Source of the DNA: Nocardiopsis sp. FIRDI 009
GTDB taxonomy: Bacteria > Actinomycetota > Actinomycetes > Streptosporangiales > Streptosporangiaceae
Assembly: GCF_003386285.1 (NCBI RefSeq)
Contig: NZ_QPNC01000001.1
Span: forward strand, 62,001 to 126,000
Reading direction: 5' to 3'
Length of the DNA: 64,000 nucleotides
Part shown: piece after piece, positions 27,736-44,566 of the stretch
Layout: the number at the start of each line of letters is the position of its first letter
Numbering within the stretch: the first letter of the stretch is position 1
The notes under the pieces: generated by a model
What the model was told of the DNA's origin: nothing
Database searches by the model: none
The model's input: the letters and a program-made list of their open reading frames with translations, nothing else
Program-made: the position numbers and the translations under genes

Positions 27736-27753
27736 GTCTCGCATAGTGAGACA
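27735..27753. promoter_or_regulatory. Palindrome upstream of ilvB leader (BCAA operator candidate, site A)
   Basis: TGTCTC-GCATAGT-GAGACA: perfect 6-bp arms, 7-nt centre, about 50 nt before the leader peptide. The same arms occur before cimA (36447), at 33352 and, less exactly, before leuB (33814). After it both ilvB and cimA copies continue with AAT. Confidence 0.6.
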
Positions 27754-27804: not shown

Positions 27805-27858
27805 GTGCAGAGCAACTCCCTGATTCTCGTACTTGGTCGGCGCGCCGCAGCCAGCTGA
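27805..27858 (+). CDS. ilvB leader peptide
   Basis: 17 codons, GTG start: VQSNSLILVLGRRAAAS. GTG 27799 would add two residues. The consecutive Leu-Ile-Leu-Val-Leu codons and the ILVLG(K/R)R core match the leader peptide conserved before actinobacterial ilvB. Ribosome stalling on these codons when branched-chain amino acids are scarce would let the attenuator at 27881-27910 be read through. Too short for routine annotation, but codon content, position and downstream structures agree. Confidence 0.8.
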   Translation: MQSNSLILVLGRRAAAS

Positions 27859-27877
27859 CCTGGTTCTGCTGCGCGCC
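27839..27877 (+). promoter_or_regulatory. Pause/antiterminator-type hairpin of ilvB leader
   Basis: Left arm ggcgcgc-c-gcag-ccag overlaps the RRAAAS codons. Right arm is ctgg-tt-ctgc-t-gcgcgcc. The stem covers the end of the leader ORF and sits directly before the terminator, as in leader-peptide attenuators. Confidence 0.6.
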
Positions 27878-27880
27878 ACC

Positions 27881-27910
27881 CCTCAACCGCACCGCGGTGG
27901 GGGTTTTTTT
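27881..27910 (+). terminator. ilvB: ilvB attenuator terminator
   Basis: Hairpin cctcaaccgc / gcggtggggg (one A-G mismatch, one wobble, loop acc) followed by seven T (27904-27910). This is one of the few U-run terminators in the window and lies 80 nt before ilvB, so it must be conditional. Confidence 0.75.
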
Positions 27911-33351: not shown

Positions 33352-33368
33352 GTCTCGTATGTTGAGAC
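33352..33368. promoter_or_regulatory. Palindrome of the BCAA operator type (site C)
   Basis: GTCTC-GTATGTT-GAGAC, flanked by C and G that extend the arms to 6 bp. Followed by AT-rich sequence (tatgttgagacg...caaatacttgg...gatattctg) that may hold a promoter for the 37-residue ORF and leuB. Confidence 0.5.
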
Positions 33369-33813: not shown

Positions 33814-33830
33814 ATCTCGCCATGTGAGAC
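33814..33830. promoter_or_regulatory. Palindrome before leuB (site D)
   Basis: ATCTC-GCCATGT-GAGAC: one arm mismatch from the consensus GTCTC-N7-GAGAC, 40 nt before the leuB start. An extra half-site GTCTC is at 33792. Confidence 0.5.
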
Positions 33831-35136: not shown

Positions 35137-36252
35137 ATGAACAACGACACCACCACAAGCGGGTTGACGTTCGACATCCAGCTCTCCGACCAGCGGAAGA
35201 CCCCGCGGGAACGAGAGGAACTGCTGGAGAATCCCGGGTTCGGCCAGGTGTTCACCGACCACATGGTGACCATTCGCTACACCGAGGGCAAGGGCTGGCA
35301 CGACGCCAGGCTCGAGCCGTACGGTCCGCTGAGCCTGGACCCGGCCACGGCCGCCCTGCACTACGCGCAGGAGATCTTCGAGGGCCTCAAGGCCTACCGC
35401 CACCCGGACGGTTCCCTCGCCTCCTTCCGTCCGGAGGCCAACGCGGCGCGGTTCAACAGGAGCGCCGCCCGCATGGCGATGCCGGAGCTCCCCGAGGACC
35501 TCTTCCTCCGGTCGATCCAGCTCCTCCTCGAACACGACGGTGACTGGGTCCCGAGCAAGCCCGACTTCAGCCTGTACCTGCGACCCTTCATGATCGCCAC
35601 GGACGTCGGCCTGGGGGTGAACAACCCCTCCCGCAGCTACGTCTACCTCCTCATCGCGTCGCCGGTCGGCTCCTACTTCTCCGGCGGCGTCAAGCCGGTG
35701 ACCGTCTGGCTGTCCAAGGACTACACGCGGGCCGCCCCGGGCGGGACCGGCGCCGCCAAGTTCGCGGGCAACTACGCGGCCAGCTTCCTCGCCCAGGCGC
35801 AGGCGGTCGAGAAGGGCTGTGACCAGGTGGTCTGGCTCGACGCCCGGGAGCACCGGTGGGTCGAGGAGATGGGCGGCATGAACCTGTGGTTCGTGTTCGG
35901 CACCGGCGAGAACGCGCGCCTGCGCACGCCGCCGCTCACCGGCACCCTCCTGCCGGGCATCACCCGCGAGTCCCTGCTGCGGATGGCGCCCGACCTCGGC
36001 TACGAGGCCGAGGAGAAGCCGCTGTCCGTCGAGGAGTGGCGCGAGGCCGCCGAGTCCGGTGAGATCTCCGAGGTCTTCGCCTGCGGTACGGCCGCCGTGA
36101 TCACCCCCGTCGGTTTCGTCAGGAGCGACGACGGCGGGTTCCGGATCGGTGACGGGACCCCGGGCCCCGTCACGATGCGCCTGCGCGAGGAGCTCGTGGG
36201 CCTCCAGACCGGGCAGCGCGCCGACAAGTACGGGTGGATCACCCGCTTCTAG
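35137..36252 (+). CDS. ilvE: Branched-chain amino acid aminotransferase
   Basis: 371 residues, class IV PLP enzyme catalysing the last step for Val, Leu and Ile (and the first step of their breakdown). PLP lysine K208 in [15 protein letters not shown]; other family motifs [46 protein letters not shown] and [24 protein letters not shown] ribosome site upstream. Lies between leuB and cimA with its own terminators. Confidence 0.97.
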
Positions 36253-36446: not shown

Positions 36447-36463
36447 GTCTCGGATAGTGAGAC
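36447..36463. promoter_or_regulatory. Palindrome upstream of cimA leader (site B)
   Basis: GTCTC-GGATAGT-GAGAC, followed by AATCCG. It differs from site A before ilvB at one base across 17 and shares the trailing AAT. About 50 nt before the cimA leader peptide, the same spacing as at ilvB. Confidence 0.6.
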
Positions 36464-36514
36464 AATCCGCCGGTGAACACCGAAGACTCCGCTCCCGTGT
36501 GGCACACTGGCCTC

Positions 36515-36556
36515 ATGCCGTCTCAGGTTCTCATTATCGTGAGGCGCGCTGGCTGA
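36515..36556 (+). CDS. cimA leader peptide
   Basis: 13 codons, ATG start: MPSQVLIIVRRAG. The run Val-Leu-Ile-Ile-Val followed by RRA parallels the ilvB leader (LILVLGRRA). Its 3' end forms one arm of a 10-bp hairpin, and a U-run terminator follows before cimA. The Ile-Ile pair fits control by isoleucine, the end product of the citramalate route. Confidence 0.75.
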   Translation: MPSQVLIIVRRAG

Positions 36557-36605
36557 CCGACTGCCCATCCACGCCGGGACAGTCCCACGGACCCTGCCAG
36601 CGCGC
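36544..36605 (+). promoter_or_regulatory. Long-range hairpin of cimA leader
   Basis: Perfect 10-bp arms gcgcgctggc (36544-36553, inside the leader ORF) and gccagcgcgc (36596-36605). Position matches the pause/antiterminator hairpin of the ilvB leader. Confidence 0.55.
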
Positions 36606-36608
36606 TGA

Positions 36609-36636
36609 CCTCTCGTGTCCACGAGGGGTCTTTTTT
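36609..36636 (+). terminator. cimA: cimA attenuator terminator
   Basis: Arms cctctcgt(g) / (c)acgagggg with one wobble, followed by tctttttt. 47 nt before the cimA start, so read-through must be conditional. Confidence 0.75.
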
Positions 36637-36682
36637 GTTGGCCGGGCCGCTGCCCCGGCGTCCACCTTCGGGAGTACCACCC

Positions 36683-38293
36683 ATGAGGGATGACGGTTTC
36701 CACGTCTTCGACACCACGCTGCGCGACGGTGCCCAGCGCGAGGGGATCAATCTGCGGGTCTCCGACAAGCTGGCCATCGCGCAGCTGCTCGACGACTTCG
36801 GGGTGGCGTTCATCGAGGGAGGGTGGCCGGGGGCCAACCCCAAGGACACCGAGTTCTTCCAGCGGGCTTCACGAGAGCTCACGCTGAAGCACGCGCAACT
36901 CACCGCGTTCGGCGCGACCCGCCGGGCCGGGGTGCGGGCCGCCGACGACCCACAGGTGGCCGCTCTGCGCGACAGCGGCGCACCGGTCGTCACCCTTGTC
37001 GCCAAGAGTGACGGCCGGCACGTCGAACGGGCACTGCGCACGACCCTGTCCGAGAACCTCGCCATGATCGCCGACACCGTGTCCCACCTGCGTGAACACG
37101 GACAGCGGGTGTTCGTGGACTGTGAGCACTTCTTCGACGGCTACCACCACGACCCCACACACGCCCTCGACGTCGTCCGCACCGCGGCCGAGGCCGGGGC
37201 GGACGTGGTCGTGCTGTGTGACACCAACGGCGGCATGCTGCCCTCCGACGTGACCCGGGTGGTCGCCGAGGTCCGCGAGGCCACCGGGGTGCGCCTGGGC
37301 ATCCACGCCCAGGACGACACCGGCTGCGCCGTCGCCAACACCCTCGCCGCCGTCGAGGCCGGGGCCACGCACGTCCAGTGCACGGCCAACGGCTACGGCG
37401 AGCGGGTCGGCAACGCCAACCTGTTCTCCGTCGTCGGCGCGCTCGCCCTCAAGCAGGGGCGCGACGTCCTGCCCGAGGGCTGCCTGGCCGAGATGACCCG
37501 GGTGGCGACCGCCATCGCGGAGATCGTCAACCTCACCCCGGACACCCACCAGCCCTACGTGGGGGTGTCGGCGTTCGCGCACAAGGCCGGGCTGCACGCC
37601 TCCGCGATCAAGGTCGACCCCGACCTGTACCAGCACACCGATCCCGCCCTCGTCGGCAACCGCATGCGGATGCTCGTGTCCGACATGGCCGGTCGGGCGT
37701 CGATCGAACTCAAGGCCCGCGAACTGGGCCTGGACCTGGGCGGTGACCGCGAGCTCTCCGGCCGCGTCGTGGACCGGGTCAAGGGCCTGGAACTGTCCGG
37801 GTACAGCTTCGAGGCGGCCGACGCGTCCCTGGAGCTGCTCCTGCGCGAGGAGCTCGGCGAACCGGTGCGCTACTTCGACACCGAGTCCTGGCGGGTCATC
37901 ACCGAGCGGCGTCCCATCAGCGGCGCCAGCCCCCTGGACGACGGGTACGAGAGCCTGACCGAGGCCACGGTGAAGCTCATGGTCAAGGGGGAGCGCGTGA
38001 TCGCCACGGCCGAGGGCAACGGCCCGGTCAACGCGTTGGACCGCGCGCTGCGCAGCGCGCTGGAGGGCGTGTACACGGCCCTGGCCGGTCTGGAACTGAC
38101 CGACTACAAGGTCAGGATCCTGGAGGGCACCTCCGGCACCAACGCCATCACGCGGATCCTCATCACCTTCGGCGACGGCGCGGGGGAGTGGACCACGGTC
38201 GGCGTGGGCCCGAACGTCATCGACGCGTCGTGGGTGGCGCTCGAGCAGGCCGTCACCTACGGCCTGCTCAGGCAGGGCTATCCGCAGGGTTGA
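36683..38293 (+). CDS. cimA: (R)-citramalate synthase
   Basis: 536 residues; ATG 36683 with GGGAG about 8 nt upstream. Condenses acetyl-CoA and pyruvate to citramalate, a threonine-independent route to 2-oxobutyrate and isoleucine. Catalytic barrel: DTTLRDGAQREGINL, FIEGGWPGANPKD, VVLCDTNGGMLP, GIHAQDDTGCAVANTLAAVEAGATHVQ and FAHKAGLHASAIKVDP. C-terminal LeuA-type allosteric domain (about 425-535: TVKLMVKGERVIATAEGNGPVNAL, GTSGTNAITRI). The double-Gln-Arg LRDGAQREG and long dimer domain separate it from LeuA. The leader-peptide attenuator with Val/Leu/Ile codons supports a role in branched-chain synthesis. Confidence 0.92.
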   Translation: MRDDGFHVFDTTLRDGAQREGINLRVSDKLAIAQLLDDFGVAFIEGGWPGANPKDTEFFQRASRELTLKHAQLTAFGATRRAGVRAADDPQVAALRDSGAPVVTLVAKSDGRHVERALRTTLSENLAMIADTVSHLREHGQRVFVDCEHFFDGYHHDPTHALDVVRTAAEAGADVVVLCDTNGGMLPSDVTRVVAEVREATGVRLGIHAQDDTGCAVANTLAAVEAGATHVQCTANGYGERVGNANLFSVVGALALKQGRDVLPEGCLAEMTRVATAIAEIVNLTPDTHQPYVGVSAFAHKAGLHASAIKVDPDLYQHTDPALVGNRMRMLVSDMAGRASIELKARELGLDLGGDRELSGRVVDRVKGLELSGYSFEAADASLELLLREELGEPVRYFDTESWRVITERRPISGASPLDDGYESLTEATVKLMVKGERVIATAEGNGPVNALDRALRSALEGVYTALAGLELTDYKVRILEGTSGTNAITRILITFGDGAGEWTTVGVGPNVIDASWVALEQAVTYGLLRQGYPQG

Positions 38294-42954: not shown

Positions 42955-43026
42955 TGGGGTATGGTGTAATCGGCAGCACGACTGATTCTGGTTCAGTTAG
43001 TCTAGGTTCGAGTCCTGGTACCCCAG
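42955..43026 (+). tRNA. tRNA-Gln (CTG)
   Basis: 72 nt. Acceptor TGGGGTA / TACCCCA, D-arm GTG..CAC, anticodon stem ACTGA/TCAGT with anticodon CTG at 42988-42990, T-arm CTAGG-TTCGAGT-CCTGG, discriminator G. CCA is not encoded. The U1-A72 first pair is usual for a tRNA-Gln amidated by GatCAB. Confidence 0.95.
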
Positions 43027-43077
43027 CTCCGGTCTCACGGTTCGCCGTGAGCCGCACGGGTCGTCGACCCGACGTGC

Positions 43078-43150
43078 GCCCCCGTCGTCTAGTGGCCTAG
43101 GACGCCGCCCTCTCAAGGCGGTAACGGCGGTTCGAATCCGCTCGGGGGTA
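43078..43150 (+). tRNA. tRNA-Glu (CTC), copy 1
   Basis: 73 nt. Acceptor GCCCCCG / CGGGGGT (G1-U72), anticodon stem CCGCC/GGCGG with CTC at 43112-43114, T-loop TTCGAAT, discriminator A. Identical to copy 2. Confidence 0.95.
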
Positions 43151-43162
43151 CCACAGGGAGAG

Positions 43163-43185
43163 GCTCCCACACCGTGGGAGCTTTT
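43163..43185 (+). terminator. Terminator between the two tRNA-Glu genes
   Basis: Perfect 8-bp stem gctcccac / gtgggagc, loop acc, followed by ttttcttct. Confidence 0.7.
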
Positions 43186-43261
43186 CTTCTGGTCAGCGCG
43201 TGTCGCTGATGTCTGGTTCGAGCGGGTATCGTGGTCCTCACGGTCGCGCTCGGATCGTCCG

Positions 43262-43334
43262 GCCCCCGTCGTCTAGTGGCCTAGGACGCCGCCCTCTCAA
43301 GGCGGTAACGGCGGTTCGAATCCGCTCGGGGGTA
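43262..43334 (+). tRNA. tRNA-Glu (CTC), copy 2
   Basis: 73 nt, identical in every base to copy 1, 184 nt downstream. Flanks are unrelated except for short stretches, so only the tRNA was duplicated or kept identical. Confidence 0.95.
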
Positions 43335-44390: not shown

Positions 44391-44566
44391 GATGCCTCTC
44401 TTCGGTGGGAGGAGCGGATGTCTCCCGTGGGGAGACGGGCGCTCCGCACCGTAGGGTCGCCGGGTGGCCACGGGGAGTCGTGCGGGGGAACCCCGTGTGG
44501 CGGGTCGGGTGGCTCCCGCGCGAGGACCGACGCGGCCCGCCCGGGGCCCGCCGTGTCCGGTGTCCC

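Follow-up and report, generated by a model that had tools for sequence, protein, structure and literature searches.

A predicted isoleucine-responsive leader-peptide attenuator upstream of the citramalate synthase gene cimA in Nocardiopsis and related actinobacteria

The closest described relatives of the element reported here are leader peptides of genes for branched-chain amino acids (BCAAs) in actinobacteria. In Mycobacterium tuberculosis, the part of the source consulted proposes that the antiterminator of the ilvB1 leader is freed by ribosome stalling and masked once a ribosome has reached the stop codon; a mycobacterial ilvB1 reporter in which LVVI is exchanged for AAAA stays low (PMC13236596). 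For Streptomyces coelicolor ilvB, exchange of candidate regulatory codons is described as leaving regulation unchanged (Craster et al. 1999, as told in PMC1262725), and the mutation results are there called ambivalent. The same 2005 survey reported leaders of ilvB and leuS and the LEU element of leuA in Actinobacteria, T. fusca included; cimA was not met in the portion of its text consulted. Similarly, the accessible text of a reannotation of Streptomyces lividans gives eight leader peptides and none for cimA; among the eight are ilvL (MRTRILVLGKRVG) and leuL2, both reported as leaderless (PMC8079986). The literature that we searched held no attenuator for cimA or citramalate synthase and no description of RNA control of the citramalate step; subscription papers were thinly covered in it, so absence from print is unproven.

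We analysed a window of 64,000 nucleotides from Nocardiopsis sp. FIRDI 009, for which an initial annotation had proposed a leader-peptide attenuator ahead of cimA. Read letter for letter, the layout proved correct: the coordinates and the peptide were exact, and the U-run terminator was present (Table 1). The parts follow one another in the order ilvE, palindrome, -10-like hexamer, leader ORF, hairpin P1, terminator, cimA. The leader codons are ATG-CCG-TCT-CAG-GTT-CTC-ATT-ATC-GTG-AGG-CGC-GCT-GGC-TGA, and, counted from the first G of P1, the codon at -11 is the ATT at 36533. Positions 36516-36640 folded at -57.2 kcal/mol, compared with -42.0 +/- 4.0 kcal/mol for dinucleotide shuffles, none of which, out of 200, folded as well (z -3.78), and the P1 span folded by itself (36544-36606) gave a z of -4.58. 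A terminator scan included the cimA leader terminator; the scan alone is little proof, because it returned 6 sites in 12.5 kb, where 3.5 would be expected. In many terminators, that of the window among them, a G-U wobble is kept (CCTCTC vs GAGGGG) though C would pair better.

Table 1. Features of the cimA leader locus and of the ilvB attenuator in the window.
Feature	Position	Strand	Basis or remark
ilvB attenuator	27805-27910	+	GTA at -11
ilvB leader VQSNSLILVLGRRAAAS, then stop	27805-27858	+	
ilvB P1	27840-27850 with 27866-27876	+	
ilvB terminator and T run	to 27910	+	
ilvE, upstream neighbour of the cimA leader	35137-36252	+	
Palindrome TCTCGGATAGTGAGA, candidate operator of an IclR-type regulator	36448-36462	+	regulator protein presumed
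-10-like hexamer CACACT	36503-36508	+	predicted from sequence only
Leader ORF MPSQVLIIVRRAG, 13 codons and stop	36515-36556	+	read letter for letter
P1 5' arm GCGCGCTGGC, within the leader ORF	36544-36553	+	letters, folding, covariation
P1 3' arm GCCAGCGCGC, 1 nt ahead of the terminator stem	36596-36605	+	letters, folding
Intrinsic terminator: stem-loop	36607-36630	+	letters, terminator scan
Intrinsic terminator: TTTTTT	36631-36636	+	letters, terminator scan
cimA, citramalate synthase, presumed regulated gene	36683-38293	+	TIGR00977, 620.5 bits (cut-off 450)

In-frame GTG codons are present 5' of the leader ATG. We prefer the ATG as the start because the -10-like hexamer ends 6 nt upstream of it, and we predict a leaderless transcript that starts at this ATG or within a few nucleotides of it. 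Among the 205 annotated regions described below, 166 carry a -10-like hexamer 6 to 10 nt ahead of a start that the leader could use (85 at 6 nt, 24 at 7, 4 at 8, 15 at 9 and 38 at 10), as annotated by a script that favoured spacings near 7. A covariance model (R1) built from 36 cimA leaders, this one included, matched the site in the 5.8-Mb genome of the window with an E value of 1.2e-18. The next match in that genome (L235, E 0.005) was rejected as chance: it lacks a leader part and by eye lies just after ABC-transporter-like genes. At 42955-43334 (+) the window also contains three tRNA genes in a row, two of them with identical scores.

The initial annotation had staked its proposal on conservation of the peptide and terminator upstream of cimA orthologues. 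Within the window's GTDB family (f1), 117 of 120 genomes have the gene; in its class as a whole, 199 of 246 do. We took 230 cimA upstream regions: 110 from f1 (of 119 rows listed); 80 named loci, assigned by names and identity to f1 (14 Nocardiopsis-like ones) or to the Streptomyces type (66); and 40 from other families, hand-picked among the matches listed to spread over families. We found that a leader ORF, P1 and a terminator could be annotated by script in 205 of the 230, in 19 GTDB families (111 in f1, 69 of the Streptomyces type, and 25 spread over 17 other families at one to three per family). By eye, 7 of the 25 regions left by the script show the element (L032, L075, L097, L109, L198, L218 and L232; the parts are weaker in the final two or three). 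By script and eye it is absent from the other 18 (L098, L099-L106, L196, L204, L205, L210, L211, L216, L222, L227 and L233), which include eight divergent cimA copies and all four f15 regions; these absences weigh against the attenuator reading. The elements number 98 distinct ones in f1, 60 in the Streptomyces type and 25 in other families; the sample is phylogenetically clustered and its members are not independent (some named loci and unnamed ones share a genome, such as L116 and L006, and L114 and L115 come from one assembly). Outside the window, genes were assigned by similarity. Streptomyces leaders read VLSFAMIIGSRRAGPQ (then stop) or are near-identical. Across regions, the Ile codons are the constant part of the cimA leaders, which supports the original suggestion that they fit control by isoleucine. 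Lack of this conservation, named at the outset as a refuting condition, was not what we found, and the arrangement is far from chance.

The distance between the Ile codons and P1 is fixed. The ATTAT nearest to the first G of P1, sought without regard to frame, starts at -11 in 110 of the 111 f1 regions and at -10 in one. In those 110 regions the in-frame codon at -11 is ATT, as it is in 97 of the 98 distinct f1 elements, and the f1 codon at -8 is mostly ATC (91/111). Streptomyces-type leaders have ATT at -14 (66/69) and an Ile codon at -11 (60/69), and 24 of the 25 elements from other families have an Ile codon at -12 to -10; the Ile-position counts for these two groups are biased, the frame having been chosen by the number of Ile codons. 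The near-invariant ATT is a rare codon, making up 3 of 135 Ile codons (2%) in seven window genes, 6 of 1218 in the cimA genes of 66 Streptomyces-type regions and 1 of 197 in those of 13 f1 regions. As in frameshift signals, a stem beginning 8-12 nt downstream of the first base of the codon in the A site is positioned at the mouth of the ribosome's mRNA channel. A ribosome whose A site holds the -11 codon would therefore touch P1 and open little of it, and one that has reached the stop codon would open P1. Given these features, we regard isoleucine-responsive leader-peptide attenuation at cimA as very probable, and think it likely that the leader acts as a ribosome-mediated transcription attenuator that reads the charging of tRNA-Ile. 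The gene would probably be switched on when isoleucine is short, and the arrangement is kept in most related actinobacteria examined.

The palindrome upstream of the leader suggests a different source of regulation. Four perfect TCTCNNATNNNGAGA palindromes occur in the 64 kb, at 27737-27751, 33353-33367, 33815-33829 and 36448-36462, and they stand before ilvB, leuB (two) and cimA. With one mismatch allowed there are 5 matches, including an imperfect fifth at 44421, against 1.6 expected, and 3 of 100 shuffles reach 5. These palindromes are likely to be operators of an IclR-type BCAA regulator, presumably an NdgR/LtbR-like protein. In the part of the source consulted, the NdgR ChIP targets include ilvB and leuB, and the motif printed there is a different 15-mer (PMC4340878). 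Control could lie with such a regulator at the operator, the leader damping expression in a minor or constitutive way. TCTC-N7-GAGA, with one mismatch at most, precedes the leader in 77 of 111 f1 regions, compared with 4% of mononucleotide-shuffled regions, and in 34 of 69 Streptomyces-type regions. Moreover, because S. coelicolor ilvB stayed regulated after its leader codons were mutated (told in PMC1262725), regulation at cimA might likewise rest largely on the upstream operator, which would count against attenuation by the leader. However, the palindrome is found in only 1 of the 25 other-family regions, yet the leader and its spacing are retained there; the constancy of a rare codon would be hard to explain for a constitutive device; and the mycobacterial ilvB1 leader codon mutant is described as having lost induction (PMC13236596, in the part consulted). 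We therefore consider it unlikely that the operator does the regulating with the leader in a minor role.

Attenuation by the leader, the reading that we prefer, assigns a function to P1, and we found that P1 is a real helix. Its Watson-Crick fraction is 0.905 over 42 distinct arm pairs, compared with a mean of 0.754 and a maximum of 0.807 in 1000 swaps of the 3' arm; because the annotation script required GCG at the start of P1 and took the best-scoring stem, the constancy of that GCG is a product of the method and the pairing fraction is biased towards high values. The evidence from covariation rests on the inner pairs 5-10, where changes are two-sided: for example, pair 6 is C-G in 23 and T-A in 13, and pair 9 is G-C in 31 and A-T in 7. 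The initial annotation had seen an RRA ending as shared with the ilvB leader. The ending is present and encodes a GCGC hairpin arm, but it is not peptide homology: in 19 of the 25 other-family regions the stop codon precedes P1 (for example, VAQALIIG and VSTQVIIT, each followed by a stop), yet the arm is retained. The RRAG residues are a by-product of coding the P1 arm, and it is the RNA arm that is kept. Within the P1 loop, GGAC(A/C) recurs shortly 5' of the 3' arm in f1 leaders (many of L033-L090), and the loop of the Streptomyces leaders (L128-L193), about 49 nt long, seems to have a conserved hairpin of its own, CCGCCACGTAC...GTACGGGCGG, which was not seen by eye elsewhere.

P1 and the terminator abut. 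The gap between them is 0 nt in 83 of the 205 elements, 1 in 41, 2 in 77, 3 in 1 and 4 in 3. The script had forced the two stems apart, and outward extension of P1 was therefore examined separately: contiguous extension, with G-U allowed, takes in no terminator-stem base in 203 of the 205 and one in 2. We then computed partition functions with ribosome footprint masks of our own choosing, one for a stalled ribosome (-27 to +1) and one for a ribosome at the stop codon (from 16 before to 12 after it). The terminator was predicted at above 0.9 in 201 of the 205 without a ribosome, in 201 under the stalled mask and in 195 under the stop mask; in four elements (L194, L201, L213 and L229) it was near zero in every state, and the fixed stem register probably misses theirs. 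In silico, with the chosen footprint, P1 fell below 0.1 in 204 of the 205 under the stop mask. Under the stalled mask it exceeded 0.5 in 134 and never 0.9, the outer two P1 pairs being masked by the choice of footprint. Under the -11 mask, P1 pairing in Streptomyces-type leaders averaged 0.40, since the first Ile codon of these leaders is one codon 5' of where the mask expects it. Neither by eye nor by folding did we find, among the 205 elements, a general antiterminator that shares bases with the terminator. Pairing of GGTCTGC in the leader with GCAGACC (many f1 leaders) and of GGACCC in the loop with GGGTC (Nocardiopsis-type leaders) were both rejected as not general. In the folding model, then, the ribosome toggles P1, and base pairing alone does not explain regulation; with a terminator predicted in all three states, thermodynamics offers no reason for antitermination, which counts against the proposal, and any action of P1 on the terminator would have to be kinetic or steric. 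As for the attenuation logic, the leader-peptide layout stands, but the logic is not that of the trp scheme.

We think it fairly probable that P1 is an antitermination element. In this proposal, transcription would start at or beside the leader ATG, and a ribosome would trail RNA polymerase through the short ORF. When Ile-tRNA is short, the ribosome would stall with the Ile codon at -11 (or -8) in its A site, and its leading edge would barely reach P1, which could then fold. Folded P1, flush with the terminator stem, would hinder closing of that stem by steric clash or junction competition, and cimA would be read through. When Ile-tRNA is ample, a ribosome at the stop codon would cover the 5' arm and P1 would open; the terminator could then close and transcription would end. 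The stalling, the premature termination and the sense of P1 are what we infer from the letters and their conservation.

P1 could also act in the opposite, classical sense, as a '1:2' stem that favours termination, with the stalled ribosome masking the 5' arm and freeing the 3' arm for an antiterminator. P1 is placed like the 1:2 stem of trp-type attenuators, its loop in the window contains a GGACCC that by eye could pair with GGGTC of the terminator, and, if the footprint is wider than we assumed, a ribosome at -8 would block the lower pairs of P1. However, with the 5' arm blocked the terminator is still predicted at above 0.9 in 195 of the 205; 14 of the 25 other-family members have P1 loops of at most 6 nt, which leave no spare strand; and the regulatory codons lie upstream of the P1 arm, not inside it. 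Together, these results make the classical sense improbable. The opposite sense is the one proposed for mycobacterial ilvB1 in the part of the source consulted, and the antitermination sense that we propose for P1 at cimA agrees with that precedent (PMC13236596).

A leader that is not translated, whether a metabolite riboswitch, a T-box or a protein-binding RNA, might account for the structure. A protein-binding role has been proposed, in the text consulted, for the leuA LEU element (PMC1262725). However, no Rfam family except tRNA (three tRNAs) reached its gathering score in the window, five loci compared with Rfam gave only three irrelevant sub-threshold matches at E up to 5, and the frame, start, codon identity and stop of the leader are kept while the P1 loop varies from 3 to 75 nt. 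We consider an untranslated leader very improbable.

To place the translated cimA leader among its relatives, we turned to the claim that it is homologous to the leader of ilvB. R1 matched at E up to 1e-4 in 77 of 118 genomes of the class and in none of the other 41. Where coordinates could be compared, its best matches are at cimA and many second matches lie just upstream of ilvB; matches before ilvB were found in many genomes of the class (E 2e-12 to 8e-5) and also in other classes. The window's own ilvB leader was absent from the search of its genome at E up to 5. Thus, the homology is supported for ilvB leaders in many genomes, and the relation between the two leaders of the window rests on anatomy, because R1 does not list that ilvB leader. 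Of 41 ilvB regions, 38 could be annotated, 30 with GTA at -11, and a few stems look wrong (L268, L270 and L278). GTA, like ATT, is rare, with 2 of 301 Val codons in window genes. Among 20 further R1 loci, picked as a subset of the remaining rows, 13 lie before leuS, 2 before leuA, 4 before ilvA-like genes, whose best matches are threonine ammonia-lyase models below cut-offs, and 1 before a small protein. The leuS leaders have Leu at -11 and -8 in all 12 that could be read, the leuA leaders have Leu at -16/-13/-10, and the ilvA-like leaders have Ile at -8 in 3 of 4. Codon identity thus follows the gene: Ile before ilvA-like genes, Leu before leuS and leuA, and Leu, Val and Ile before ilvB. With this build retained ahead of ilvB, leuS, leuA and ilvA-like genes, and with leader, spacing and P1 retained across 19 GTDB families, it is hardly credible that the terminator merely ends the transcript of ilvE, which lies upstream on the same strand, and that the leader ORF is a product of chance.

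Several of these loci deserve separate description. The Leu-codon leaders of the same build (L309-L322 and L327; 13 before leuS, 2 before leuA) come from several families. Four genomes of family f15 (L323-L326) carry an Ile-codon leader, P1 and terminator before the ilvA-like gene, and the four f15 cimA regions are without the element. At L328, a cimA-type leader, MFTPRIII followed by a stop (R1 E 4.3e-15), precedes a 103-residue protein with a weak, sub-threshold ACT-domain match, which is perhaps a relative of the acetolactate synthase small subunit. Across the phylum, R1 matched at E up to 1e-3 in 30 of 149 genomes, and 24 of these belong to other classes. We examined 20 of the 26 rows from those other classes: 17 have ilvB downstream, 1 cimA and 1 leuA, and 1 lies at a contig end. 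It seems that ilvB is the widest member and that cimA is chiefly a member in Actinomycetes. Tentatively, and with somewhat less than even confidence, we suggest a phylum-wide family (cimA, ilvB, ilvA-like genes, leuA and leuS) in which regulatory codons would sit at about -14/-11/-8, as on a ruler, from a GC-rich hairpin that abuts the terminator and shares no bases with it. Switching would work by adjacency (steric or stacking) rather than by alternative pairing; the codon kept at the decisive position would be a rare one, and the amino acid would be reset from gene to gene.

If the attenuator works as proposed, the first step of the citramalate route towards isoleucine would be under Ile-specific attenuation in much of Actinomycetes. 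A fixed distance between codon and hairpin, combined with a rare codon, would be a precise rule that could be tested on ilvB leaders as well. The attenuator may also mark which gene of the isoleucine pathway is controlled in a given lineage: cimA in most families seen, and the ilvA-like gene in four f15 genomes.

The cimA leader shares with the four-segment attenuator of the trp type a leader peptide, regulatory codons and an intrinsic terminator. Unlike that type, it has no antiterminator that shares terminator bases, and without translation it would be expected to give read-through rather than termination. The 'fast' attenuator of Corynebacterium glutamicum ilvBNC resembles cimA, in the parts of the sources consulted, in that antiterminator and terminator stand side by side (PMC11857589), and there the leader ORF lies one nucleotide from the transcript start and the two hairpins compete at a common base (PMC11857589; ilvB-II motif, PMC10272879). 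Only in C. glutamicum, however, do the hairpins share a GCC trinucleotide, and only there has a third hairpin, an antiantiterminator, been proposed (PMC11857589, PMC10272879); no such shared boundary trinucleotide was met at cimA, as judged from the extension of P1 (no stem base in 203 of 205). The ilvB and leuS leaders of Streptomyces, as far as described in the text consulted, are like the cimA leader in having a short ORF, BCAA codons and a terminator (PMC1262725, PMC8079986). M. tuberculosis ilvB1NC, in the part of its source consulted, has a short ORF with Leu, Val and Ile codons (GUA being a regulatory codon there), a hairpin proposed to be free on stalling and masked at the stop codon, and an intrinsic terminator; it differs from cimA in gene and codons, and in that antiterminator and terminator are called mutually exclusive there, whereas at cimA they abut and share no bases (PMC13236596). 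The cimA leader would thus fail one defining feature each of the trp type and of the C. glutamicum type. A conserved ORF with BCAA codons, a terminator between this ORF and the gene, and, through R1, a relation to ilvB leaders are all found at cimA, and these features place its leader, as predicted from sequence, with the actinobacterial BCAA leader attenuators.
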